DNA from: Promicromonospora soli
GTDB taxonomy: Bacteria; Actinomycetota; Actinomycetes; Actinomycetales; Cellulomonadaceae
DNA length: 64,000 nucleotides
Assembly: GCF_014653785.1 (NCBI RefSeq)
Contig: NZ_BNAS01000001.1
Span: forward strand, 1,188,952 to 1,252,951
Direction: 5' to 3'
The position numbers were made by a program, and so were the translations under genes. The notes below the pieces were generated by a model that saw only the letters and a list, made by a program, of their open reading frames with translations, was not told the DNA's origin and did not search any database. Below, piece by piece: positions 9,625-52,434 of the stretch (position 1 is the first letter of the stretch; every line of letters starts with the position of its first letter).

Positions 9625-10413
9625 TCAGGCCCGCCGCACCACCGGGTTGCTGAGCACGCCGAGGCCTTCGATCTCGACCTCTACCCGGTCGCCCGCGTCC
9701 ATCAGTCCGACGCCGGCGGGGGTCCCGGTGAGGATCACGTCGCCCGGCAGCAGGGTCATGGCCTCGGAGACGAACGACACCAGGAACGGCACGTCGAACA
9801 CCAGGTCCCTGGTCCGCCCGTCCTGCTTGGTCTCGCCGTTCAGGCGGGACACCACGCCGACGTCCTCCGGGTTCACGTCCGTGTCGATCCACGGCCCCAG
9901 CGGGCACGACGTGTCGAAACCCTTGGCACGGCCCCACTGGCCGTCCGTCTTCTGCGCATCGCGCGCCGAGACGTCGTTGGCGCAGGTGTAGCCCAGCACG
10001 TACGCCATCGCGTTCTGCGGCGACACGTCCTTGCACACCTTGCCGATCACGACAGCCAGCTCGGCCTCGTACCCCACCTCGATGGTCCAGTCGGGCAGCA
10101 CGATGGGGTCGTCCGGCCCGACCACCGACGTGTTCGGCTTGAGGAACAGCATCGGCGACGTCGGGACGTCGTTGCCGAACTCGGCGGCGTGCGCGGCATA
10201 GTTGCGCCCCACCGCCACCACCTTCGACCGGGGGATGACCGGGGCGAGCAGCCGGACGCCGTCGCCCAGCTCGATGCGCTCGCCGGTCGGCATGGCCGGC
10301 ATGTACAGGGGGTCGCCGCCCAGGACGGCGAGGAACGTCTTGTCGCCCTCCTGCTGAACGAGGGCGAAGCGGGGGTCGTCTCCGGTGGTAAATCTCGCGA
10401 TACGCACGAGCAC
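9625..10413 (-). CDS. Fumarylacetoacetate hydrolase (FAH) family protein
   Basis: A 262-aa enzyme of the FAH/2-hydroxyhepta-2,4-diene-1,7-dioate isomerase family, which hydrolyse, decarboxylate or isomerise beta-diketo acids using a divalent metal. A short N-terminal domain precedes the FAH fold starting at VVAVGRNYAAHAAEFG (about residue 65). Metal ligands are expected in EVGYEAELAVVIGK (about 111-124; Glu-x-Glu) and in CANDVSARD (about 143-151), with the closing LLPGDVILTGTPAGVG motif near 225. The start is GTG at 10413. It lacks neighbours of an aromatic catabolic pathway, so it could equally be a housekeeping oxaloacetate decarboxylase/tautomerase-like member. Confidence 0.9.
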   Translation of the reverse strand: MLVRIARFTTGDDPRFALVQQEGDKTFLAVLGGDPLYMPAMPTGERIELGDGVRLLAPVIPRSKVVAVGRNYAAHAAEFGNDVPTSPMLFLKPNTSVVGPDDPIVLPDWTIEVGYEAELAVVIGKVCKDVSPQNAMAYVLGYTCANDVSARDAQKTDGQWGRAKGFDTSCPLGPWIDTDVNPEDVGVVSRLNGETKQDGRTRDLVFDVPFLVSFVSEAMTLLPGDVILTGTPAGVGLMDAGDRVEVEIEGLGVLSNPVVRRA

Positions 10414-10432
10414 AATCTACGTCCCACAATTC

Positions 10433-10493
10433 GTTGTGGGCGCGATCGTTGCGCCTACCCGTCCGTTTTAGGCGCAACGATCGCGCCCACAAC
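10433..10493. terminator. Long perfect hairpin, dispersed repeat family copy 1
   Basis: Perfect 24-nt arms (10433-10456 and 10470-10493) around a 13-nt loop. It lies downstream of the methyltransferase stop and upstream of the FAH start. The left arm is identical over all 24 bases to the left arm of the hairpin at 30721, so this is a dispersed element and not only a local terminator. Confidence 0.85.
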
Positions 10494-10502
10494 CAAGGTG
10501 GG

Positions 10503-11534
10503 TCAGGCGCGGGCCAGGACCTCGCCGTTCAGGACCGCGAACCAGCCGTCCGGCGCCGCGGCCCACTCGCGCCAGCCCTGGGCGAGCTGCTCGAGGGCTA
10601 CGTCGTCCGCGAGCGCCGAGTCCTTGGCCTGGACCGCGAAGTTGGACTGGGTGCAGCGCTCGGCCCACAGGCCTCCCCACCAGGTGCGGTCGTCGGGGGT
10701 GGCGTAGCACCAGACGCTCGCGCCGGGCTCGATCGTGGCGGGGTCGAAGCCGGCGTCCCTCACCCAGGAGGCGAGGCGGCGGCCGGCGTCGGGCTCGAAG
10801 CCGTAGGCGTGCGTGACCTCGTGGTACAGCATGTTCCACTCGGTGAGCTCGGCAGACTCGGGGTACCAGGTCATGGCGTCGTAGTCGGCGTCGCGCACCG
10901 CGACGAACCCGCCCGGCTTGGCTACGCGCTTCATCTCGCGCAGGGCGGCCACCGGGTCGGACAGGTGCTGCAGGAGCTGGTGCGCGAAGACGACGTCGAA
11001 CGAGTCGTCCTCGAACGGCAGCTCGTACGCGTTGGCGTGCTCGAAGCTGATGTTTTTCGTACCGTGCGCGTCGGCGAGTCCGCGCGCCGACTCCAGGACG
11101 TCGTCGGACGCGTCCACGCCCACGACGCTGCCCTGTGTCAGCCGCTCGGCCAGGTCGACGGTGACGGTGCCGGGCCCGCAGCCGACGTCGAGCAGCGTCA
11201 TGTCGGAGAGCAGGTGGGGCAGCAGGAAGGCCGCGGAGTTCGCCGCCGTCCGTCGCCGGTGGGAGCGCAGCACGGACTCGTGGTGCCCGTGCGTGTACGA
11301 CTCGGACTCCTTGGTCAGGTCCTTCACCGCGCCCGGGCTGTTCAGGCCCGACCGGCTGCTCGGGGCGTCGACCGCGTCGATCGGGTCGGTCCCCGCCGGC
11401 TTGCCGCGGTCTCGGGAGGCGCCGCCGGCCCCCTCGTTCCCGCCGTTGCTGTACGTATTACCGAACGCGTCGCTGAGCTTGTGGCTCGACGTGTCAGTGC
11501 GGGCCATGTCGAACTCGTTGCCGCTGCCGGTCAT
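10503..11534 (-). CDS. SAM-dependent methyltransferase, class I
   Basis: A 343-aa protein with a Rossmann-type methyltransferase core: motif I LLDVGCGPGTVTVDLA (about residues 114-129), an acidic residue at the end of strand two (GVDASDD), and the later SFDVVFAHQLLQHL and REMKRVAKPGG segments (about 175-205). This resembles UbiE/Methyltransf_11 enzymes. The first 90 residues are unusual, low in complexity and rich in Gly, Ser and Asp, and carry no domain I recognise; an internal ATG at 11507 would shorten them slightly. It diverges from the membrane acyltransferase gene 129 bp away. The methyl acceptor is unknown. Confidence 0.88.
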   Translation of the reverse strand: MTGSGNEFDMARTDTSSHKLSDAFGNTYSNGGNEGAGGASRDRGKPAGTDPIDAVDAPSSRSGLNSPGAVKDLTKESESYTHGHHESVLRSHRRRTAANSAAFLLPHLLSDMTLLDVGCGPGTVTVDLAERLTQGSVVGVDASDDVLESARGLADAHGTKNISFEHANAYELPFEDDSFDVVFAHQLLQHLSDPVAALREMKRVAKPGGFVAVRDADYDAMTWYPESAELTEWNMLYHEVTHAYGFEPDAGRRLASWVRDAGFDPATIEPGASVWCYATPDDRTWWGGLWAERCTQSNFAVQAKDSALADDVALEQLAQGWREWAAAPDGWFAVLNGEVLARA

Positions 11535-42438: not shown

Positions 42439-43662
42439 ATGCACCACGCCCACGATGACTCTTCAAGCAGGGCCTCTGCACGCACTGGAATCTGGTTCGT
42501 CGGAGCGCGCGGCTCCGTCGCCAGCACCGCCACCGTCGGCCTCGCGGCAATCACCCATGGTCAGTCGCCGCCGACGGGCTGCGTCACCGCGCGGGAGCCC
42601 TTCGCCTCGGCGGCCCTCCCCGCGTTCGCCGACCTCGTCGTCGGCGGGCACGACATCTCCGCCGTCACCATGACCAAGCGCGCGGAGTGCCTCGTCGAGA
42701 CCGGCATGATCCCGCAGCGGCTGCTCGCCGCCACGCACGACGCCCTCGAACGGGCCGACGCCGAGGTGCGGTCCGGGTACGACCCCCATGCCGCCGCGCA
42801 CGGAGGCCCGGAGGAGGCGCACGGGAGCTCGCAGCAGGACGCCGCCGAGCGGCTCGCCGCGGACATCACGGCGTTCCAGGAGCGGCATGCCCTGGCGCGG
42901 GTCGTCGTGATCGACGTCTCCTCGACCGAACCGCCAGTCGTCCCGGTGCCCGAGCACTACGACACCGACGCCCTGCTCGCCGCCCTCGCCGACCCGACCC
43001 GCTCGGTGCTGCCCGCGTCGTCCGTCTCCGCGTATGCGGCGATCCTCGCCGGAGCCGCGTACGCCGCCTTTACGCCGTCGGCGGGCATGGGCCTGCCCGC
43101 CCTGATCCAGCTCGCGCGCGACCGCGGGATCCCCGCGGCCGGGCAGGACGGCAAGACCGGGGAGACCTGGCTGCGCACCGTGCTGGCCCCCGCGTTCGCC
43201 GCGCGCGGGCTGAAGGTGCTCTCGTGGGCCGGCACCAACCTGCTGGGCGGCGGCGACGGCGCCACCCTCGCCGACCCCGAGGCAGTACGCAGCAAGCTCG
43301 CCAGCAAGAACCGCGGCCTGCGGGCGCTGACCGGCAGCGACACCACCCCGCTGCACATCGACAACGTGCCCGACCTGGGCGACATCAAGGTCGCCTGGGA
43401 CCACGTGCACGTGGAGGGCTTCCTCGGGTCGCGGCTCACGCTGCAGACCACCTGGAGCGCCCACGACTCGATGCTCGCCGCGCCGCTCGTCCTCGACCTG
43501 GCCCGCCTGCTCGCGCTCGCCCACGCCGCCGGGATCAGCGGGACCGTCCCAGAGCTCGGCTACTTCTTCAAGGACCCCTGGGACTCGGACGTGCACGACG
43601 CCGCCGAGCAGGCCGGCGCGCTCGAGGACTGGGTTCGCCGCACATCGGCGCAGGTCCGCTGA
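42439..43662 (+). CDS. Inositol-3-phosphate synthase-like protein, first gene of the ebo-type cluster
   Basis: A 407-aa protein of the myo-inositol-1-phosphate synthase family. The Rossmann NAD site is IWFVGARGSVASTATVG (about 19-35), and the conserved SWAGTNLLGGGDGATL and KLASKNRGL segments (about 266-295), with GKTGETWLRTVLAP before them, form the active-site region. It is not the usual actinobacterial Ino1 (about 360 aa) but the longer form with VTMTKRAECLVE. Its stop overlaps the start of the UbiA gene (TGATG), so it is translationally coupled to the ebo genes. It may make a cyclitol or phosphosugar scaffold for the pathway; the product is not known. Confidence 0.85.
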   Translation: MHHAHDDSSSRASARTGIWFVGARGSVASTATVGLAAITHGQSPPTGCVTAREPFASAALPAFADLVVGGHDISAVTMTKRAECLVETGMIPQRLLAATHDALERADAEVRSGYDPHAAAHGGPEEAHGSSQQDAAERLAADITAFQERHALARVVVIDVSSTEPPVVPVPEHYDTDALLAALADPTRSVLPASSVSAYAAILAGAAYAAFTPSAGMGLPALIQLARDRGIPAAGQDGKTGETWLRTVLAPAFAARGLKVLSWAGTNLLGGGDGATLADPEAVRSKLASKNRGLRALTGSDTTPLHIDNVPDLGDIKVAWDHVHVEGFLGSRLTLQTTWSAHDSMLAAPLVLDLARLLALAHAAGISGTVPELGYFFKDPWDSDVHDAAEQAGALEDWVRRTSAQVR

Positions 43663-44747
43663 TGACGTACCGGCCGGAACCCCCGTTCGAGCTGCCACCG
43701 GAGCACCGACCGGAGTCACGGCTGCGGGAGACCGGGCTGAGAATTCAGGCGAGGGCCCTGGCGCGCGCCGAGGCGAGGGCACGTTCGGACGCGGCTTCGG
43801 GGACCCCGGTCAGCGCGCGGCCGCCGCGCCTCGGTGACCTGGCCGAGCTGGTCCGAGCGCCAGCCGCCCTGACCGTCGTCGGGGACTCGCTGGCGGGCCT
43901 GGCCGCCGCCCGGGCAGGCACGCCGACGCCGTTCCGCTCGCGCCACCTCCTGCTGCCCGTTGCCTCGGCCTGTCTCTATCTGGGCGGGATGGCGTTGAAC
44001 GACTACGCCGACCGGGACGTGGATGCCGTCGAACGCCCCGAGCGGCCCGTTCCGTCGGGCCGGGTGACGCCGGGGACAGCGCTCGCGGTCGGCGCGGCCC
44101 TGACCGCGGGTGGCGTGGCAGCGGCAGGGGTCGCGGGCGGGCGACGGGCGCTCGGCGTCGCGATCCCGCTCGCAGCCTGTGTCTGGACGTACGACCTGGC
44201 CGCCAAGGACCGCTCGGCAGGGCCGTTCGTCATGGCGGCGTGCCGCGGGCTCGACGTGCTGCTCGGCGCCACGCCCGGGCGTCTGCGGTCCGCGCTGCCG
44301 GCCGCCGCCGGGCTGTCCGCCCACACGCTGGGCGTCACCCTGCTGTCGCGCGGCGAGGTGCACGGCACGACGGCGCGGGTCGCGGGCGGTGTCGCCGCGG
44401 GCACCGTCGCCGGTGCGGTCGCGGCGGCCACCGCACGTCCCTGGCATGCCGCCACCGCCCTCTCGGCCCGCCGGACCGCTGTCCGCTGGACCACGGTCGG
44501 GGCCGCCACCGCCTACGCCGCGGCCTGCCTGCCGGCGCAGGCCCGCGCCGCCGCCAGTCCCACGGCGGCCAACGCGCGGGCCGCTACCCGGTCCGGGATC
44601 CAGGCGATGGTGCCGCTGCAGGCGGCGTGGGCGGCGCGCTCCGGGAGCCTGGGCACGACGGCGGTCCTGGCCGGGATCGCCGCGATCGGATACGGGCTGC
44701 GACTGCTGGGCCGCACCCGGGGCAGCGCGGGGGTTAGCATCACATGA
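43662..44747 (+). CDS. eboC: UbiA-like prenyltransferase, EboC type
   Basis: An integral membrane aromatic/cyclitol prenyltransferase-like protein of 361 aa. The first Asp-rich motif is MALNDYADRDVDAVERPERPVPSG (about 109-132; NDxxDxxxD), and the second is weaker (WTYDLAAKDRSAG, about 176-188). About eight hydrophobic helices follow. The first 60 residues are a charged cytoplasmic extension. The ARPERPVPSGRV pattern and the place between an inositol-phosphate synthase and eboA fit the UbiA-like EboC. It overlaps neighbours by 1 nt upstream and 4 nt downstream. The acceptor is unknown. Confidence 0.85.
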   Translation: MTYRPEPPFELPPEHRPESRLRETGLRIQARALARAEARARSDAASGTPVSARPPRLGDLAELVRAPAALTVVGDSLAGLAAARAGTPTPFRSRHLLLPVASACLYLGGMALNDYADRDVDAVERPERPVPSGRVTPGTALAVGAALTAGGVAAAGVAGGRRALGVAIPLAACVWTYDLAAKDRSAGPFVMAACRGLDVLLGATPGRLRSALPAAAGLSAHTLGVTLLSRGEVHGTTARVAGGVAAGTVAGAVAAATARPWHAATALSARRTAVRWTTVGAATAYAAACLPAQARAAASPTAANARAATRSGIQAMVPLQAAWAARSGSLGTTAVLAGIAAIGYGLRLLGRTRGSAGVSIT

Positions 44748-45640
44748 GGCCCCCGTTCCTCCTGGGCTACGGCACGAACGGCTTCGGCGACCATCCGCTG
44801 CCCGCCGCGCTCGACGTGCTCGACGACGTCGGGTACGACGCGGTCGCGCTCACCCTCGGCTTCCCGCACCTCGACCCGTTCGCACCCCTCGCGGGCGACG
44901 ACGTCGCCGCGCTGCGCAGGCACCTCAAGCGGATGCGCGGGGGTGCCGGGGCGGCGGTAGTGGTCGAGACCGGCACGCGCTACCTGCTCGACCCGCTGCA
45001 CAAGCACCGGCCGACGCTCGTCGACCGGGACGCGACCCTCCGGATGCGCTTCCTGGAACGCGCCGTCGAGGTCGCGGCGGACCTCGACGCCCGCTGCGTC
45101 TCGTTCTTCTCCGGGATCCTGCCGGACGACGCCGACGCGGCCGACGGCTGGGCCAGGCTCCGCGACCGCATCCCACCCCTGGTCGAGCACGCCGGAGAAC
45201 GCGGGGTGCGGCTCTCGCTCGAACCCGAGCCGGGCATGCTCGTCGAGACCGTCGACGACGCCCTGCGACTTCACTCCGACGTGGGCGCGCCGCCCGAGCT
45301 GGGGATCACCGTCGACGTGGGGCACTGCCTCGTCGTCGAGCCCGAGGGTGTCGAGGGCGCGCTGCGGGCCGCCGCGCCGCACCTGTTCAACGTGCAGCTC
45401 GACGACATGCCGCCCACGCACCACGAGCACCGCCCGTTCGGCGAGGGCAGCATCGACCTGCCGCTCGTGCTCGCCACGCTCGCCGACATCGGCTACACCG
45501 GGGTCGCCGCAGTCGAGCTGCCCCGCCACTCCCACGACGCGCCCCGGCTCGCCCTGGACAGCCGCACCGCCCTGATGCGGGCATGGGCGGCCGTCACCGG
45601 TGCCCGCGCCGACACCACCAGCGACGGGGCCCGCTCATGA
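44744..45640 (+). CDS. Sugar phosphate isomerase/epimerase-like TIM barrel in ebo cluster
   Basis: A 298-aa AP-endonuclease-2-type TIM barrel (xylose isomerase-like superfamily). Expected metal ligands are Glu in LSLEPEPGML (about 164-173), Asp/His in ITVDVGHCLV (about 187-196), His in the FNVQLDDMPPTHHEHRPFGEG segment (about 213-233) and Glu in AAVELPRHSHD (about 253-263). It overlaps both neighbours by 4 nt. In cyanobacterial ebo operons a single such barrel (EboE) is present together with a dehydroquinate-synthase-like EboD; here two barrels occur and no EboD, so this one may fill a different step. Confidence 0.82.
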   Translation: MRPPFLLGYGTNGFGDHPLPAALDVLDDVGYDAVALTLGFPHLDPFAPLAGDDVAALRRHLKRMRGGAGAAVVVETGTRYLLDPLHKHRPTLVDRDATLRMRFLERAVEVAADLDARCVSFFSGILPDDADAADGWARLRDRIPPLVEHAGERGVRLSLEPEPGMLVETVDDALRLHSDVGAPPELGITVDVGHCLVVEPEGVEGALRAAAPHLFNVQLDDMPPTHHEHRPFGEGSIDLPLVLATLADIGYTGVAAVELPRHSHDAPRLALDSRTALMRAWAAVTGARADTTSDGARS

Positions 45641-46308
45641 CCGCCGGCACGAGCGGCTGGCTCGCAGAGGCCTGCGCCGAGGTCGCGCGCGACCCGGACA
45701 GCGTCACCCGTGCGTTCGCGGTCGCCGCCCGCCAGGTGGGCCGCGGGCCGCGGTGGCCGGATACCGACCCGACCGGCGTCGTGCACGGCACGGTCGACGA
45801 CGCCGCGCGGGCGACGCTCGTCGTCGCGCTGGCCGCCGCCGTCGGTACGGGCCCGGACTGTGCCGAGCGCCTGACGCTCCTCTACCGGCAGGGCGACGCC
45901 GCCGAGCGGCGCGGCGTGCTGCGAGGTCTCGACGCGCTCGAAGCGCGGGGCGACCTGAGCGACGCCGGCGGCGCCGGAACTGTCGAGCCTGGCGCCGCTG
46001 AGCTGGTCGTCGCCGGCCTCGAGCTCGCCGCCGACGCCCTGCGGACCAACGACCCGAGCCTCGTCGCGGCCGCCGTCGGCCCGTTCGGGTCCCGCCACCT
46101 GGACCAGCACACGTGGCGGCACGCGGTCCTCAAGCTCGTCTTCCAGGGCGTGAGTCTCGACGCCGCGAGCGGCCTCGAGACCCGGACCGACGACGAGCTG
46201 GACCGCATGGCGCGCGACTTCGCGGCAGAACGCCGGGCCGCGGGACGGCCCGTACCGGCCGACCTCGACCGGCTCACGACCCACCGGCCTGCCACGACAA
46301 GGGAGTGA
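45637..46308 (+). CDS. eboA: EboA domain-containing protein
   Basis: A 223-aa, mostly helical protein. The C-terminal part carries the EboA signature: LRTNDPSLVAAAVGPFGSRHLD (about 129-150), WRHAVLKLVFQGVSLD (about 153-168), and the ending with RTDDELDRMARDFAAERRAAGR (about 176-197). EboA proteins have no known activity; they occur with EboB, C and E in operons linked to transport or secretion of secondary metabolites (scytonemin in cyanobacteria, EDB in Pseudomonas). Overlaps the TIM-barrel gene by 4 nt; eboB follows after 2 nt. Confidence 0.85.
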   Translation: MTAGTSGWLAEACAEVARDPDSVTRAFAVAARQVGRGPRWPDTDPTGVVHGTVDDAARATLVVALAAAVGTGPDCAERLTLLYRQGDAAERRGVLRGLDALEARGDLSDAGGAGTVEPGAAELVVAGLELAADALRTNDPSLVAAAVGPFGSRHLDQHTWRHAVLKLVFQGVSLDAASGLETRTDDELDRMARDFAAERRAAGRPVPADLDRLTTHRPATTRE

Positions 46309-46310
46309 CG

Positions 46311-47186
46311 ATGCGCATCCTCGACCCGCACATCCACATGACGAGCCGCACCACCGACGACTACGAGGCCATGTACGCCTCGGGAGTGCGCGCCGTCGTC
46401 GAGCCGTCGTTCTGGCTGGGCCAGCCCCGCACGAGCGTGGGCTCGTTCACCGACTACTTCGACGCCCTGCTCGGCTGGGAGAGGTTCCGGGCAGCGCAGT
46501 TCGGCATCCGGCACCACGCGACGATCGCACTCAACCCCAAGGAGGCGAACGACCCGCGCTGCCGGGAGGTGCTCGCCGAGGTCCCCCGCTACCTGCTCAA
46601 GGACGGCGTGGTGGCCGTGGGCGAGGTCGGCTACGACTCGATGACCCCCGAGGAGGACGAGGTGTTCGCCGCGCAGCTCGTCATGGCCCGGGAAGCCGGG
46701 CTCCCCGTCCTCGTGCACACCCCGCACCGCGACAAGCTGGCGGGAACGCGCCGCACCCTCGACGTCGTACGCGAGTCGGGCCTGCCGCCGGAACGGGTGC
46801 TCGTGGACCACCTCAACGAGACCAACGTCGCCCTGGTGCGCGACGCCGGGGCGTGGGCCGGGTTCTCCATCTACCCCGACACCAAGATGGACGAGCGCCG
46901 CATGGTCGCCATGCTCCAGGAGTACGGCACCGACCGCATGATCGTGAACTCCGCCGCGGACTGGGGCCGCTCCGACCCGCTCAAGACCGCCCGGACCGGG
47001 CAGGCGATGCTCGCGGCGGGCTTCTCGGCCGACGCCGTCGACCAGGTGCTGTGGCGCAACCCCGTCGCGTTCTACGAGCAGTCGGGAAACCTCGTGCTCG
47101 ACCCGGTACCAGGGTTCAGCGCGGGCGCTCCGCCGGCAGGCGTCGAGTTCGAGGGCTCGTCCGTACTGCGCGGCGCGCGGGCCTGA
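46311..47186 (+). CDS. eboB: TatD-family metal-dependent hydrolase, EboB type
   Basis: A 291-aa amidohydrolase-fold protein. Metal-binding motif HIH is in MRILDPHIHMTSRT (His7, His9); other ligands are in GEVGYDSMTPEEDEVFAAQL (about 104-123; Glu), VHTPHRDK (about 137-144; His), VDHLNETN (about 164-171; His) and MIVNSAADWGRSDP (about 211-224; Asp). This matches TatD-like EboB hydrolases rather than housekeeping TatD nucleases. GGGAG lies six bases before the ATG. Inferred role: hydrolytic trimming or processing of the cluster's metabolite. Confidence 0.87.
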   Translation: MRILDPHIHMTSRTTDDYEAMYASGVRAVVEPSFWLGQPRTSVGSFTDYFDALLGWERFRAAQFGIRHHATIALNPKEANDPRCREVLAEVPRYLLKDGVVAVGEVGYDSMTPEEDEVFAAQLVMAREAGLPVLVHTPHRDKLAGTRRTLDVVRESGLPPERVLVDHLNETNVALVRDAGAWAGFSIYPDTKMDERRMVAMLQEYGTDRMIVNSAADWGRSDPLKTARTGQAMLAAGFSADAVDQVLWRNPVAFYEQSGNLVLDPVPGFSAGAPPAGVEFEGSSVLRGARA

Positions 47187-47198
47187 GGGGGAATCGGG

Positions 47199-48434
47199 AT
47201 GCTGCTCTCGTACTGCACCAACGTGCACCCCGCCGAGGACCTCGACGGCGTGATCGACCAGCTCGGCCGATACTCCGGACCCGTGCGCGAGGCCGCCGGC
47301 CTCGACACGCTCGGCGTAGGGCTGTGGCTGCCCGCCGAGCTGGCGCACCGCCTGGACCGCTCCGCCGCCGACCGGGAACGGCTGCGCGCGGCGCTCGCCG
47401 AGAACCGGCTCCAGGTACACACCCTCAACGCCTTCCCGTACGGCGGCTTCCACCGCGAGGTCGTCAAGCTCGCGGTGTACTCCCCCACCTGGGCGGAGCG
47501 CGCCCGACTCGACTACGTGCTCGCGTGCGCCCGCGTACTGGCCGACCTGCTGCCCGACGACGACACCACCGGGTCGATCTCGACCCTCCCGCTGGCCTGG
47601 CGCGCCCCCTGGACGCAGGCCGACGACGACGAGGCGACGCGGGCCTTCGCCACTCTCTCCGCCGAGCTGCGCGAGCTCGCGGAGCGCACCGGCCGGACCG
47701 TGCGCGTCGCCGTCGAGCCCGAGCCGGGATGCGTGCTCGATACCGTGGAGGACGTCGTCTCGTGGCTGGCCGCGCGCACCGGCGCCGAGCGGCCCGACGA
47801 CCGGCGCATCGACCCCGAGTACGTCGGCGTCTGCCTGGACACGTGCCACCTGGCCGTGTCGTTCGCGGACCCGGCGGGCGCCGTCGGCCGGATCACCAGC
47901 GCCGGCCTGCGTGTGGTCAAGGTCCAGGCGTCCGCTGCGCTCGAGGTCGCCGACCCGTCCGTGCGCGGCGCCCGCGACGCCGTCGGGCGGTTCGTCGAGC
48001 AGCGCTACCTGCACCAGGTGCGTGAGCTGGCGCCGTCGGGCGAGGTGCTGGCCTCCGACGACCTGCCCGTGGCGCTCGGGAACGCGGACCGGCGCCCGGG
48101 GCTGCCGGGCGACGGGCCGTGGCGGGTGCACTTCCACGTGCCGCTGCACCACGAGCCGGACGCCCCGCTGACCGCGACGACGAGGGTGCTGCGCGACGCC
48201 GTCGCCGCGGTCCGGGCCGCGCCGCACGGCGCCGAGGCGCACCTCGACGTCGAGACGTACACGTGGTCGGTCCTGCCGGACGGCGTCCTGGGCGGCGTCG
48301 GGGATGGCGCGCTCGGGGCTGGTGCGGACGGGGCGGGCGGCCTCGTGGCCGGGATCGCGGCCGAGCTGCGCTGGGCCGGGGAGCACCTGATGACCGGGGA
48401 CGCCGCCGTCGCGACCGAAGGAGTCGGCGCATGA
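47199..48434 (+). CDS. eboE: Metabolite traffic protein EboE (TIM barrel)
   Basis: A 411-aa xylose-isomerase-like barrel of the EboE group. The opening LLSYCTNVHPAEDLDGVIDQL (about 2-22) and the FPYGGFHREVVKLAVYSPTW segment (about 74-93) are the strongest family marks; metal ligands are likely in VAVEPEPGCVL (about 170-180), VGVCLDTCHLAVSF (about 208-221) and HFHVPLHHEPD (about 309-319). A Gly/Ala-rich loop (about 365-380) sits near the end. AGGGGGA precedes the ATG. Overlaps the next gene by 4 nt. Named for involvement in metabolite traffic in other bacteria; chemistry unknown. Confidence 0.9.
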   Translation: MLLSYCTNVHPAEDLDGVIDQLGRYSGPVREAAGLDTLGVGLWLPAELAHRLDRSAADRERLRAALAENRLQVHTLNAFPYGGFHREVVKLAVYSPTWAERARLDYVLACARVLADLLPDDDTTGSISTLPLAWRAPWTQADDDEATRAFATLSAELRELAERTGRTVRVAVEPEPGCVLDTVEDVVSWLAARTGAERPDDRRIDPEYVGVCLDTCHLAVSFADPAGAVGRITSAGLRVVKVQASAALEVADPSVRGARDAVGRFVEQRYLHQVRELAPSGEVLASDDLPVALGNADRRPGLPGDGPWRVHFHVPLHHEPDAPLTATTRVLRDAVAAVRAAPHGAEAHLDVETYTWSVLPDGVLGGVGDGALGAGADGAGGLVAGIAAELRWAGEHLMTGDAAVATEGVGA

Positions 48435-49942
48435 GGCCCGTCCTGCTGCTCGACGTCGTCGGGCTCACCGCCCGCGCCCTCGCCCACATGCCGCGCCTGC
48501 GGCGGCTCGCGGACTCGGGCTGGCAGTCCGAGCTCGCCACCGTGCTCCCCGCGGTGACGTGCAGCGTGCAGTCGTCGATGCTCACGGGGCTGATGCCGGC
48601 CGAGCACGGGATCGTCGGCAACGGCTGGTACTTCCGGGAGCTGGGCGACGTGTACCTGTGGCGCCAGCACAACCGGCTGGTCGGCGGCGAGAAGCTGTGG
48701 GAGGCCGGGCGGCGGCACGACCCGGAGTACAGCGCCGCGAACGTGTGCTGGTGGTACGCGATGGGCATGACCACGGACGTCACCATCACCCCGCGCCCGA
48801 TCTATCACGCCGACGGCCGCAAGTCGCCGGACGCGTACGTCCGCCCGGCGTCGCTGCACGACGAGCTGACCGGCCGGTTCGGCGACTTTCCGCTGTTCAC
48901 CTACTGGGGCCCGACGGCGTCGATCGCGTCGACCCGCTGGATCGTGGACGTGACCAGGCACCTGCTGCGCACGCGCGCGTCCCACCTCACGACGGCGTAC
49001 CTGCCGCACCTCGACTACGACCTGCAGCGCTTCGGCCCCCAGTCGCCCGAGGCGGACCGGGCGGCAGCCGACCTGGACGCCGCCCTGGCACCGCTGCTCG
49101 ACGACGCCGAGGCGGGCGGTGTCACCGTCGTCGCCGTCTCGGAGTACGGCATCGCGCCCGCGAACCGGCCCGTGGACATCAACCGGATCCTGCGTCGCGA
49201 GGGCTTCCTGGAGGTCTACGTGCAGGACGGCCGCGAGCAGCTCGACCCGTGGGCGTCGCGCGCCTTCGCCGTCGCGGACCACCAGGTGGCGCATGTCTAC
49301 GTCACCGACCCCTCGGACGTTGCCCGGGTCGCGGACCTGCTGCGCGAGGTACCCGGCGTCGACGAGGTGCTCGACCGTGAGGCGCAGGCCCGCTACGGGC
49401 TGGACCACGAGCGAGCGGGCGAGCTGGTCGTCGTGGCCGAGCCGGGTTCGTGGTTCACGTACTACTACTGGCTGAACGACGACCGCGCGCCGGAGTTCGC
49501 GCGCGGCGTCGACATCCACCGCAAACCCGGCTACGACCCCGCCGAGCTGTTCTTCGACCCCGCCGACCCGCTGGCCAAGGCCAAGGCCGGCCTGAACCTC
49601 GTGCGCAAGAAGCTCGGGCTGCGGTACGCGATGGGTACCACCCCGCTCGACCCGTCGTACGTGCGCGGAACACACGGCCGGCTGCCCGACTCGGCCGCGG
49701 ACACGCCCCTCGTCCTCTGCTCGGACGCGCGGATTCCCGCGGCCGTCTCGCGCTGGGTCGAGGACGACGCCGGCCAGGTGCCGGCGACCGCGGTCAAGGG
49801 GCTGGTGCTGGACCTGCAGGGGGCCCTCAGGACAGCAGGAGCTTCTCCAGCCGGGTCGACGCCGCGACGGCGCCCACCAGGCCAAGTCCCACGAGGTACG
49901 CCACGTGCACCCAGATCCCTGCGTCCACCTGGCCCAGCATGA
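48431..49942 (+). CDS. Type I phosphodiesterase/nucleotide pyrophosphatase-like protein, probable EboF
   Basis: A 503-aa alkaline-phosphatase-superfamily protein. The nucleophile Thr/Ser region is VLPAVTCSVQSSMLTGLMPAEHGIVGNGWYF (about 38-68; Thr43 likely), followed by PHLDYDLQRFGP (about 195-206) with metal-binding Asp and VVAVSEYGIAP (about 235-245; Glu in place of the common Asp-His). No signal peptide, so cytoplasmic. The ATG overlaps the eboE stop by 4 nt. The last 40 residues (Pro/Arg-rich) are read from DNA that also encodes the convergent ABC permease: a 116-bp overlap that suggests a lost stop codon or a frameshift near 49830. Confidence 0.82.
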   Translation: MRPVLLLDVVGLTARALAHMPRLRRLADSGWQSELATVLPAVTCSVQSSMLTGLMPAEHGIVGNGWYFRELGDVYLWRQHNRLVGGEKLWEAGRRHDPEYSAANVCWWYAMGMTTDVTITPRPIYHADGRKSPDAYVRPASLHDELTGRFGDFPLFTYWGPTASIASTRWIVDVTRHLLRTRASHLTTAYLPHLDYDLQRFGPQSPEADRAAADLDAALAPLLDDAEAGGVTVVAVSEYGIAPANRPVDINRILRREGFLEVYVQDGREQLDPWASRAFAVADHQVAHVYVTDPSDVARVADLLREVPGVDEVLDREAQARYGLDHERAGELVVVAEPGSWFTYYYWLNDDRAPEFARGVDIHRKPGYDPAELFFDPADPLAKAKAGLNLVRKKLGLRYAMGTTPLDPSYVRGTHGRLPDSAADTPLVLCSDARIPAAVSRWVEDDAGQVPATAVKGLVLDLQGALRTAGASPAGSTPRRRPPGQVPRGTPRAPRSLRPPGPA

Positions 49943-50666
49943 GCGCTCGTTCGAGCGCCACGCCGTGGTACAGCGGTGTGACCTGCACCAGCCACTGGAG
50001 TGCGGGCGGGTACGTCGCCAGCGGGAAGAAGGTGGCGCTGAACAGGAACATGGGCTGGATCGCGAGGGTCACGTAGTCGAAGTCGACCCAGGACCGCATG
50101 AACGTCGTGGCGAACATGCCGATCGCGGCGAACGCGAACCCGATGAGCACGGCCGCGGGCAGCGCGAGCAGCGCCCACCACGAGGTGACGGCGCCCGCGA
50201 GCGCCGCGACGACCAGGAACAGTGCGGAGTAGATGGCGCCGCGGATGAGTGACCAGCTGATCTCGCCCACGGCGATGTCTCGCGGGCCGAGCGGCGTCGC
50301 CAGCATGGCGTCGTACAGCTTGGCGTACTTGAGCTTCCAGAACACGTTGAACGTGGAGTCGAAGACAGCCCCGTTCATGGCGGACGCCGCGAGCAGGGCC
50401 GGCGCCACGAACGCCGCGTAGGGCACCTCGGCGCCGGAGTCGGTGGTCACGGTCCGGACCAGGCCGCCGATGCCGATGCCCATGGAGAACAGGTAGAACA
50501 CGGGCTCGGCGAAGCCGGTGACGAGCGCGACCCACAGGTGCCGGTAGGCGCGGATGTTGCGCTCGACGAGCATGCGCGCCATCCCGGCGCCGGCGGGGAT
50601 GGGAAGCGCCCGGGCGATACGGGAGGCGAGGCCGCGGGGCGCGGCCGGCGCGGTCGTCGTGCTCAC
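49827..50666 (-). CDS. ABC-2 type transporter permease (second of two)
   Basis: A 279-aa membrane protein with six helices of the ABC-2 (DrrB/NodJ) family; the conserved stretch FVAPALLAASAMNGAVFDSTFNVFWKLKYAKLYDAMLATPLGPRDIAVGE (about 84-133) is the NodJ/DrrB signature. It is paralogous to the permease upstream, and the two presumably form a heterodimer with the ATPase. Start GTG 50666, overlapping the previous gene's stop by 4 nt. Its 3' end overlaps the convergent phosphodiesterase gene by 116 bp. Export of the ebo product is an attractive inference, but direction of expression differs. Confidence 0.9.
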   Translation of the reverse strand: MSTTTAPAAPRGLASRIARALPIPAGAGMARMLVERNIRAYRHLWVALVTGFAEPVFYLFSMGIGIGGLVRTVTTDSGAEVPYAAFVAPALLAASAMNGAVFDSTFNVFWKLKYAKLYDAMLATPLGPRDIAVGEISWSLIRGAIYSALFLVVAALAGAVTSWWALLALPAAVLIGFAFAAIGMFATTFMRSWVDFDYVTLAIQPMFLFSATFFPLATYPPALQWLVQVTPLYHGVALERALMLGQVDAGIWVHVAYLVGLGLVGAVAASTRLEKLLLS

Positions 50667-51505
50667 TTGACCAGCCTCCTGGTCAGGGCTCGCTCGCACA
50701 GCACCCATGCGACCAGGACGAACGCCAGGAGCACACCCAGGTGCAGGGCCAGCCAGGGCGGGTCGACGGTCCCCAGGGCGACCATGCGCGAGGACTCGAC
50801 GCCGTGCCACAGGGGGGTCACCCAGGCGAGCGGCTGCATCCAGGCCGGGAGCTGGTCGATCGGGAAGAAGGTGCCGCTGAACAGCATGAGCGGGGTCGCG
50901 ATCAGGCGGAACAGGATGGTGAACCCGTCCTCGTTGTCCTGGGTCGCGGTGAATCCGAAGATGGGAACCGTGAACGCGAGGCCGGTCAGCACGGCGATCG
51001 GGAGGCACCACAGCGCGCCCCACGTGGCGAACCCGCCGAACAGGGACGCGACCAGCATGAACACGGCGGTGGCTACGACCAGCCGGCCGGCGATGGAGCC
51101 GATGTGCCCGACCAGGATGTCCCGTACGCGCAGCGGCGTGGCGAGCATGGAGTCGTAGAGCTTGCTCCACTTGATGTAGTCCATCACCGGATAGGTGGCC
51201 TCGAACATGGCGAGCCACATGGTCTGCATGGCCACGATCGCCGGCACGACGAACTGCAGGTAGGGCACGCCGCCGAGGCCGCCGGTGCGCTCGTCGATCA
51301 GGGAGCCCAGGCCGATACCCATGGCCAGCAGGAAGAACAGCGGCGACACGAACGTGCTGATGATGGTGCCGCGCAGCGTGCGCCGGTAGACGAGCAGGAG
51401 GTACCCGGTCACGGCGCCGATCCGCTCCCGCGCCGCCAGCGGCGGTCGCGGGCCGTGGTCGCCGCGTGCGGTGAAGACTTCGGTGCTCATCGGTGCGCCG
51501 GTCAT
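50663..51505 (-). CDS. ABC-2 type transporter permease (first of two)
   Basis: A 280-aa ABC-2 family permease with six helices and the same signature as its neighbour (FVVPAIVAMQTMWLAMFEATYPVMDYIKWSKLYDSMLATPLRVRDILVGH, about 84-133). The ATG at 51505 shares one base with the ATPase stop; a second Met 15 bp on (MSTEVF) is a possible start. About 30% identity to the next gene by eye suggests an old duplication. With the ATPase it forms a heteromeric exporter of the DrrAB type. Confidence 0.9.
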   Translation of the reverse strand: MTGAPMSTEVFTARGDHGPRPPLAARERIGAVTGYLLLVYRRTLRGTIISTFVSPLFFLLAMGIGLGSLIDERTGGLGGVPYLQFVVPAIVAMQTMWLAMFEATYPVMDYIKWSKLYDSMLATPLRVRDILVGHIGSIAGRLVVATAVFMLVASLFGGFATWGALWCLPIAVLTGLAFTVPIFGFTATQDNEDGFTILFRLIATPLMLFSGTFFPIDQLPAWMQPLAWVTPLWHGVESSRMVALGTVDPPWLALHLGVLLAFVLVAWVLCERALTRRLVK

Positions 51506-52434
51506 CAGTCCACCAGCGTCCGGCCGGTCAGGTGCAGGAACACGTCTTCCAGCGTGGAGCGCCGCACCAGCGACGACAAGGGCTGGATGCCCCGGTCGTG
51601 CACGCCGGCCGCTGCCTCGTCGCCGTCCTCGGCGTAGACCAGCAGGCGGTCCGGCAGCACTTCGATGCGCTGGCCGATGCCCGCTATCTTGGTGCCGAAC
51701 TCGGCGTGGTCGTCGGCGTCGAACCGGAGCTCGAGCACCTCGCGCGTGGAGTGCTGCCTGATCAGCGCCTGCGGCGATCCCTCGGCGACGATGCGCCCGT
51801 GGTCCATGACGACGAGCCGGTCGCACAGCTGCTCTGCCTCGTCCATGTAGTGCGTCGTCAGGATCAGGGTGACGCCCTGGCGCTTGAGCCGGAACAGCCG
51901 GTCCCACAGCAGATGGCGAGCCTGCGGGTCGAGGCCGGTGGTGGGCTCGTCGAGCAGCAGCATCTCCGGCGTGCTGATCAGCGCTCGCGCGATGGTCAGG
52001 CGACGTTTCATGCCGCCCGACAGCGGCTCCACCCGGTCCTTGGCGCGCTCCGTGAGCTGCGCGAACGCCAGCAGCTCGACCGCGCGCTCGCGTACCTGGG
52101 CGCGCGACAGACCGAAGTACCTGCCGTACACCCACATGTTCTCCTCGACCGTGAGCTCCTGGTCCAGCTGGTCCTGCTGGGGGACGACGCCGAGCCGGGC
52201 GCGGATCTGCGGCCCGTGGGTGGCCGGGTCCTGTCCGAAGATTCGCAGCTCGCCGGCCGTCACCGGCGACACTGCCCCGACCATGCGCATGGTCGAGGAC
52301 TTCCCGGCCCCGTTGGGTCCAAGAAACCCGAAGGACTCCCCCTTGTGCACGGCGAAGTCGACGCCGTCGACCGCGGTGAGGTCGCCGAACCTCTTGGTCA
52401 GACCGCGTGCGCTGAGGAGGATCTCTTCGGCCAT
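51505..52434 (-). CDS. ABC exporter ATP-binding protein (DrrA/NodI type)
   Basis: A 309-aa ATPase. Walker A GPNGAGKSS (about 39-47), Q-loop VVPQQDQ (about 83-89), signature LSGGMKRR (about 138-145), Walker B LLLDEPTTGLD (about 158-168) and H-loop TTHYMDEAEQ (about 192-201) are intact. The C-terminal DrrA/NodI extension (about 220-309), ending TLEDVFLHLTGRTLVD, is present. First gene of the three-gene exporter operon, start ATG 52434. DrrA-type systems export antibiotics, polysaccharides or lipids. Confidence 0.95.
   Translation of the reverse strand: MAEEILLSARGLTKRFGDLTAVDGVDFAVHKGESFGFLGPNGAGKSSTMRMVGAVSPVTAGELRIFGQDPATHGPQIRARLGVVPQQDQLDQELTVEENMWVYGRYFGLSRAQVRERAVELLAFAQLTERAKDRVEPLSGGMKRRLTIARALISTPEMLLLDEPTTGLDPQARHLLWDRLFRLKRQGVTLILTTHYMDEAEQLCDRLVVMDHGRIVAEGSPQALIRQHSTREVLELRFDADDHAEFGTKIAGIGQRIEVLPDRLLVYAEDGDEAAAGVHDRGIQPLSSLVRRSTLEDVFLHLTGRTLVD

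Follow-up and report, generated by a model that had tools for sequence, protein, structure and literature searches.

The ebo operon was named in 2016, when an isoprenoid-cyclitol product was proposed for it (PMC5133447). The same report mentions, as data not shown, an actinobacterial EboA fused to a xylose-isomerase-like region, and the word inositol is absent from its main text. Deletion of the ebo genes in Nostoc led to a transport model for scytonemin, as the monomer stays in the cytoplasm of the mutants, which was read as a defect in transport (PMC6282210). In addition, an enzyme of the EboC family farnesylates quinolines in vitro (PMC9235831). Here we analyse a stretch of 64,000 nucleotides from Promicromonospora soli (contig NZ_BNAS01000001.1, positions 1,188,952 to 1,252,951 of the forward strand; hereafter the window), which contains a seven-gene operon at positions 42439-49942. 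The operon is a real and conserved ebo variant with a substituted cyclase, representing the actinobacterial form of the ebo cassette. A relative of myo-inositol-1-phosphate synthase (MIPS), here termed IPS, occupies the position of EboD. This IPS-type operon is not described in the titles or abstracts found among openly licensed papers.

Gene content of the operon

The operon is composed of seven tightly packed genes on the plus strand, as stated in the initial annotation, and the junctions are 1-nt or 4-nt overlaps with a single 12-nt gap. Protein families were assigned with Pfam and NCBIfam profiles. The first gene encodes IPS, a NAD-dependent sugar-phosphate cyclase of the MIPS family located in the EboD slot (42439-43662, 407 aa; PF07994 184.8 bits, PF01658 101.6 bits). 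It overlaps by 1 nt with the gene of an EboC-like UbiA prenyltransferase of the SCO3242 family (43662-44747, 361 aa; PF01040 56.8 bits). Three genes follow with 4-nt overlaps, encoding the xylose-isomerase-like TIM barrel TIM1 (44744-45640, 298 aa; PF01261 128.4 bits), an EboA domain protein predicted to be all-helical (45637-46308, 223 aa) and an EboB-like protein of the TatD/amidohydrolase superfamily (46305-47186, 293 aa; PF01026 47.4 bits). The EboB-like gene starts with GTG, and an alternative ATG at 46311 would leave a 2-nt gap in place of the overlap. After the 12-nt gap comes EboE, a ketose-epimerase-like TIM barrel (47199-48434, 411 aa), which overlaps by 4 nt with an EboF-like type I phosphodiesterase (48431-49942, 503 aa; PF01663 205.8 bits). 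The gene order is IPS-C-TIM1-A-B-E-F.

The initial annotation made its ebo assignment dependent on EboA and EboE, and both proteins score above the curated cut-offs of their profiles (EboA, NF035938, 145.3 bits, cut-off 50; EboE, NF035939, 419.5 bits, cut-off 250). Pfam by itself gives no match for the EboA gene, and its protein does not reach the longer EboA_family model NF035937 (50.7 of 320 bits). The second protein, previously labeled UbiA/EboC, is an EboC-like prenyltransferase with a kept motif, but it belongs to the SCO3242 family (NF045897, 317 bits, cut-off 260) and stays below the canonical EboC model (NF035940, 146 bits, cut-off 250). The profiles also support the presence of an extra TIM barrel and of an inositol-phosphate-synthase-like protein in place of EboD, a sugar-phosphate cyclase whose fold differs from that of EboD; TIM1 lies outside the six named ebo genes and is fused to EboA in some relatives. 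Moreover, profiles made from the EboB- and EboF-like genes recover their counterparts in five annotated EboD-type plasmid cassettes. Directly downstream of the operon, ABC-2 type transporter genes are located on the minus strand (49827-52434).

The cyclase in the place of EboD

The absence of EboD, noted at the outset, extends to the whole genome. PF01761 gives one genome match only, and this match is aroB (TIGR01357 346.6 bits, cut-off 305), so that an EboD hidden elsewhere was rejected. The same genome contains a separate INO1 of mycothiol synthesis (TIGR03450 family, 703 bits), whereas the ebo IPS reaches only 30 bits against this family (cut-off 638).

The sequence family and the catalytic lysines place IPS in the myo-inositol-1-phosphate synthase superfamily, and its closest solved relative is the MIPS of A. 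fulgidus (1u1i, E 1.6e-61). Residues K286, K290, K317, K378, N267, D237, and D343 (window numbering) are kept in at least 97% of 97 aligned rows. Positions K274, K278, K306, K367, N255, D225, and D332 of the A. fulgidus enzyme are identical in 17 ebo IPS proteins, MIPS and the genome's own INO1. An eighth position inspected, 368, is S in MIPS and INO1 and D in 15 of the 17 ebo IPS proteins. Three of the seven active-site positions are not the same in 1u1i and in the PDB entries 3qvw, 3qvx, and 3qw2. A structural study of fungal MIPS assigned catalysis to such a lysine network (PMC11348189). Since IPS keeps the MIPS lysines, it is probably catalytically active and substitutes for EboD as the cyclase.

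Conserved motifs and predicted folds of the other proteins

The EboC-like protein keeps N113, D114, D117, and D121 of the N-D-x-x-D-x-x-x-D motif in at least 97% of 63 rows. The same level of conservation is found for E160, D191, H194, and E258 of TIM1 (88 rows), and for H9, H11, E107, H138, H169, and D219 of the EboB-like protein (87 rows), whose best solved relative is 3guw (E 2.7e-24). In the alignments, EboB, TIM1, and EboE retain metal-ligand patterns, and we presume that the kept residues act as metal ligands.

EboA is predicted to be all-helical (AlphaFold pLDDT 94.8), with helical repeats as its structural neighbours. A Foldseek search of the PDB gave no match at E 0.001, and the similarity to HEAT-type repeats (VIA, Z 12.0, 185 residues, 4.2 Å) lies within the arrangement common to helical models. 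EboA had appeared to be missing in many relatives, which proved to be an artefact of a small profile: NF035938 detects EboA in all five EboA regions tried, and a trimmed EboA profile finds it in 87 of the 100 sequences searched. The EboE model resembles the ketose 3-epimerases, with L-ribulose 3-epimerase 8yeb as an example (Z 24.2, 263 residues, 2.9 Å), as well as 2-hydroxy-3-keto-glucal hydratase (Z 22.1), and this likeness of fold between a model and known enzymes shows no function.

The EboF-like proteins lack the D-H-G metal motif of the two-zinc, PhnA-like type I phosphodiesterases, in which D-H has a metal role. E238-Y239-G240 takes its place in the window, and E-Y-G is found in all 41 EboF-like rows, from cassettes with either type of cyclase. 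Q199 replaces a histidine of PhnA in 40 of the 41 rows, Thr43 is kept in 41 and Asp8 in 31. The abstract and sections 3.2, 3.4, and 3.7 of PMC5133447 do not mention the E-Y-G substitution.

Distribution in Actinobacteria

EboE was detected in 19 of 396 actinobacterial genomes, 18 of them above the cut-off, and 17 of these 19 contain IPS within the cassette in the gene order of the window. The set of genome G381 is of the EboD type and comprises EboD, B, E, C, and F. In G279 the reading frames of EboC and EboE are broken, through either decay or sequencing error, and no IPS is present in the stretch examined (L044:5642-10643); an IPS-like sequence with a weaker match (323 bits) is found on a different contig. 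G128 harbors a second set without IPS (L027), together with one IPS and one dehydroquinate synthase (DHQS) match in the genome.

An IPS-alignment scan was evaluated for the best 80 named loci of at least 574 relatives, which are the top-scoring ones and not a random sample. In 61 of the 80 loci, covering 33 genera, the complete set of seven genes lies colinear on a single strand within 9 kb, so the grouping is not due to chance. The gene order singled out in the initial annotation therefore recurs in other actinobacteria and is not peculiar to this genome: the seven-gene IPS-type operon is a common actinobacterial arrangement, the pieces of which have already been named by NCBI. Among the matches listed, the nearest relatives of the window IPS are from Promicromonospora (83-87% identical).

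The remaining loci vary in several ways. Seven run into the end of the available sequence (L049, L051, L062, L069, L088, L100, and L121, the last stopping at a contig end). In the Planotetraspora loci L107, L115, and L118, EboB and EboE are separated by about 6 kb of inserted DNA, and the available sequence ends inside EboE. IPS has no ebo genes beside it in L090, L091, L092, L095, L096, L104, and L121, and is accompanied by TIM1 and EboA only in L093. In both Lentzea genomes, EboC is the ebo gene closest to IPS, at a distance of about 22-23 kb and apparently on the same contig; one of the two also contains a further cassette that includes an IPS. Of four Micromonospora genomes, two carry a separate ebo cluster that includes an IPS, one has ebo genes where a contig starts, and one gives only a weak EboE match.

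The Micromonospora IPS paralogues L090, L091, L092, and L095 (around 10001-11170) branch within the ebo IPS set. Genes for an aminotransferase, a pyridoxal-phosphate-dependent decarboxylase, a carrier protein and an acyl-CoA dehydrogenase surround the paralogue of L091, a locus that perhaps makes a cyclitol natural product. A lone EboE is located among type II polyketide synthase (PKS) genes in a Streptomyces plasmid (L130:11965-13143). In two Streptomyces-type loci, a predicted Tat-secreted protein with no Pfam or NCBIfam match is found near IPS (L127:8410-9201 and L028:15241-16167).

Possible exchange of the cyclase

IPS and EboD occur in separate cassettes. In the IPS-type loci, flanks included, nothing matches the DHQS profile. 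One match is found in the EboD-type locus L030, whose genome has two DHQS matches, one of them in the cassette, and no IPS. Likewise, IPS was not found in the stretches examined around the five EboD-type plasmid cassettes. NF045897 recognizes the EboC-like protein of the window and that of L027 (347 bits), but not that of L030 (84 bits). The 21 actinobacterial IPS-type rows are set apart from all others in the EboF tree by a branch with 100/100 support.

A Gemmatirosa plasmid carries IPS beside EboC, EboF, and EboB, and no DHQS was detected in this plasmid, the only replicon searched. Its EboF falls on the EboD side of the 100/100 branch, and its grouping with the actinobacterial IPS-type rows was rejected by the approximately unbiased (AU) test (p 0.024). 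Its IPS lies outside the actinobacterial-haloarchaeal set (SH-aLRT 89, in a quick tree that includes two very long rows). As both proteins fall outside the actinobacterial IPS type, these trees suggest two independent pairings of IPS with ebo genes, Gemmatirosa perhaps being the second.

Five haloarchaeal plasmids with IPS are present among the matches listed, and four of them were examined. In those of Halocatena, Halobaculum, and Natronococcus, IPS is accompanied by two TIM barrels and by genes resembling EboF, EboB, and EboC. EboA gave no match in these three cassettes, and the Halocatena barrels score far below the EboE cut-off. ThuA is located near the Halocatena set, and the annotation of the Halobaculum set names neither ThuA nor a glucose/sorbosone-dehydrogenase-like (GSDH) protein. 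The Halomarina BND7 plasmid has no ebo-like set. Plasmids of Roseomonas and Hymenobacter (L136:7971-17149 and L137:7593-16294) carry IPS with Gfo/Idh, YcaO-like, TIM barrel, and PIG-L deacetylase genes, and have no ebo genes.

Possible role of the operon

The gene content, order and conservation of the operon, together with its kept catalytic motifs, are most economically read as an accessory pathway. We infer, and lean towards the view, that this pathway makes a membrane-anchored prenyl-cyclitol which serves an adjacent extracytoplasmic process, either as carrier or as cofactor. The substrate of IPS would be a hexose 6-phosphate, either glucose 6-phosphate or, as for Ari2, a ketose phosphate, and its cyclisation would yield a cyclitol phosphate; in other phyla this task has been proposed for EboD, acting on sedoheptulose 7-phosphate. 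Epimerisation, dehydration or hydrolysis of the ring, or of its precursor, may fall to TIM1, EboE, and EboB, and a phosphate may be the target of EboF. The membrane enzyme EboC would attach the prenyl chain, while EboA could be a helical scaffold keeping the enzymes together. In many actinobacteria and some haloarchaea, the process served may be that of proteins which oxidise sugars; in Streptomyces and cyanobacteria it may be the assembly of antibiotics or pigments. In favour of this reading are also the polyprenyl-synthase-like protein found near 6 of 82 loci with IPS and EboE, and the farnesylation carried out in vitro by an enzyme of the EboC family (PMC9235831).

With an unrelated cyclase in place of EboD, the chemistry of ebo is narrowed to a ring derived from a sugar phosphate. 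MIPS-type enzymes are readily assayed, and the first step of the pathway is therefore directly testable. Furthermore, the occurrence of cassettes in haloarchaea and the repeated presence of GSDH next to the cluster suggest a role that goes beyond the export of scytonemin. The initial annotation had proposed an undescribed cyclitol-based, perhaps prenylated metabolite. The kept motifs of the cyclase and the prenyltransferase agree with this proposal, but a cyclitol-isoprenoid had already been put forward in 2016 (PMC5133447).

Several observations weigh against a prenyl-cyclitol product. IPS could make ordinary inositol phosphate, and the EboC relatives tested so far took aromatic, mostly quinoline-type acceptors, with no cyclitol named in the part of the report considered (PMC9235831). 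No metabolite or enzyme assay on the IPS-type variant was found in the openly licensed literature. Genes are missing from some loci: TIM1 was not seen in L088, which runs into the sequence end, EboC, EboE, and EboF were not detected in L114, nor EboC and EboF in L117, and the ebo set of L027 lacks IPS. The argument for a second pairing rests on one Gemmatirosa record, and the group used in the AU test was chosen after a quick tree had been seen. Haloarchaeal EboC scores 178 bits with the canonical model and 164 bits with the SCO3242 model, both below the cut-off, and the type of EboC is therefore not strictly tied to the type of cyclase. Finally, the neighbourhood, counted in flanks of about 10 kb around 82 loci with IPS and EboE from 34 named genera, is not constant, and the flanks of the window, which contain no GSDH, no antibiotic or ScyE-family genes and no sugar-catabolism neighbours, give no clue.

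It is possible, if doubtful, that the product is a dedicated lipid carrier by which metabolites cross the membrane, as has been suggested in the case of scytonemin. In Streptomyces plasmids the clusters adjoin biosynthetic genes, namely non-ribosomal peptide synthetase genes in L127 and type II PKS genes in L128, where a nearby cassette is presumably diazo-forming. The carrier role also agrees with the Nostoc deletion work (PMC6282210), and with the counting of SCO3242 and SCO3243 among the genes of the CDA cluster (PMC3610822). However, the conserved set has no transporter gene, half of the loci have GSDH-type neighbourhoods, and no monomer conjugated to a lipid was seen in Nostoc (PMC6282210). 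The connection of ebo with metabolite transport made in the initial annotation rests on this one cyanobacterial study, and the neighbourhoods also fit a role in cofactor supply or sugar oxidation.

We regard it as unlikely that the product, rather than being a transport carrier, acts as a cofactor, redox or catalytic, of extracytoplasmic oxidoreductases of the GSDH-like and ScyE-like families, both of which presumably have a beta-propeller fold. A GSDH-domain protein is present in the flanks of 43 of the 82 loci, from 18 of the 34 named genera. It is on the same strand in 40 of the 43 and within 1.5 kb in 31, at a median of 194 bp from the cluster, and another search seed gave 42 GSDH-flanked loci. 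Because GSDH matches number 1-6 per EboE genome (counts that may be low, as scoring was limited to five candidates or fewer in many of these genomes), we estimate chance adjacency at a few percent. Several of the flanking proteins have N-termini that, by eye, resemble secretion signals. GSDH is found in all 19 EboE genomes vs 240 of 396 overall; this co-occurrence was set aside as proof, since genome size and class confound it, and adjacency was relied on instead. In addition, a GSDH-plastocyanin fusion lies near the Natronococcus cassette, and a dehydrogenase and a c-type cytochrome are encoded some kb away from the EboD-type cassette of K. vulgare.

ScyE-family genes likewise adjoin the clusters of Streptomyces plasmids (NF033206 253 and 243 bits, cut-off 80). 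A ScyE relative is located within 5 kb of the ebo genes in five of the seven plasmid records having one, and Thermomonospora L108 has two ScyE-like genes beside IPS. These five plasmids are not independent, because four of them carry near-identical to 79% identical copies. Among the matches listed, ScyE lies near EboE in none of the 396 genomes, four EboE genomes having a single-stretch match above the cut-off, and ScyE is thus unsupported as a general partner on chromosomes. A cofactor role is also at odds with the 39 loci, and the window, that have no GSDH nearby, and with the monomer retained in the cytoplasm of the Nostoc mutants (PMC6282210). A bolder proposal than that of a prenyl-cyclitol, and a testable one, is that ebo makes a prenylated cyclitol-derived cofactor for extracytoplasmic beta-propeller dehydrogenases in bacteria and haloarchaea, with EboD and IPS exchanged at least twice; we hold this to be decidedly unlikely.

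The neighbours also raise the quite improbable alternative that the operon is part of sugar catabolism via 3-keto-glycosides, a field in which periplasmic 3-keto sugar breakdown has been covered (PMC9007349). ThuA (26 of the 82 loci), 3-keto-disaccharide hydrolase (16), Gfo/Idh (24), sugar-binding (25), and ROK (28) proteins are found in the flanks, with sugar ABC genes at some loci, and a neighbouring TIM barrel is related to the 2-hydroxy-3-keto-glucal hydratase 8ro4 (E 2.7e-37). As a common neighbour ThuA is weaker than GSDH, PF06283 being unmatched in 7 of the 20 genomes tried. None of those domains occurs around the window, three Promicromonospora loci or five Mycobacterium loci, none is named in the annotation of the Streptomyces plasmid clusters L127, L128, L155, and L156, and it is not evident what a prenyltransferase would do in the breakdown of sugars.

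That IPS is a spare myo-inositol-1-phosphate synthase whose adjacency means little is very improbable and was rejected, for although it shares family and catalytic residues with MIPS, a full mycothiol INO1 sits elsewhere in the genome, the ebo IPS scores far below the cut-off of that family, and its place is kept in 61 of 80 loci.

Comparison with known systems

The operon shares the EboA domain and EboB-, EboC-, EboE-, and EboF-like proteins, in one operon, with the ebo genes (EboA-F) of Bacteroidota, cyanobacteria and eustigmatophyte plastids. It differs from this canonical form by IPS in place of EboD, the extra and sometimes EboA-fused TIM1, an EboC of the SCO3242 family and its own gene order. 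UbiA-297, the EboC of marine Flavobacteria, is likewise an EboC-family prenyltransferase in an ebo cluster, but that cluster is canonical with EboD, and the reported products derive from aromatic acceptors (PMC9235831).

IPS resembles MIPS (A. fulgidus 1u1i and the mycothiol INO1 of TIGR03450) in its sequence family, the D-G-K-T-G-E-T loop and the four lysines. In contrast to MIPS, the ebo IPS proteins form a clade of their own, far below the mycothiol cut-off, with the haloarchaeal ebo-linked IPS as the nearest group in a quick tree. Ari2 of aristeromycin biosynthesis (6k96) offers a parallel, as a MIPS relative recruited for another cyclitol phosphate (PMC11188666), whereas it forms a five-membered ring from fructose 6-phosphate and matches IPS weakly in sequence (E 9e-8).

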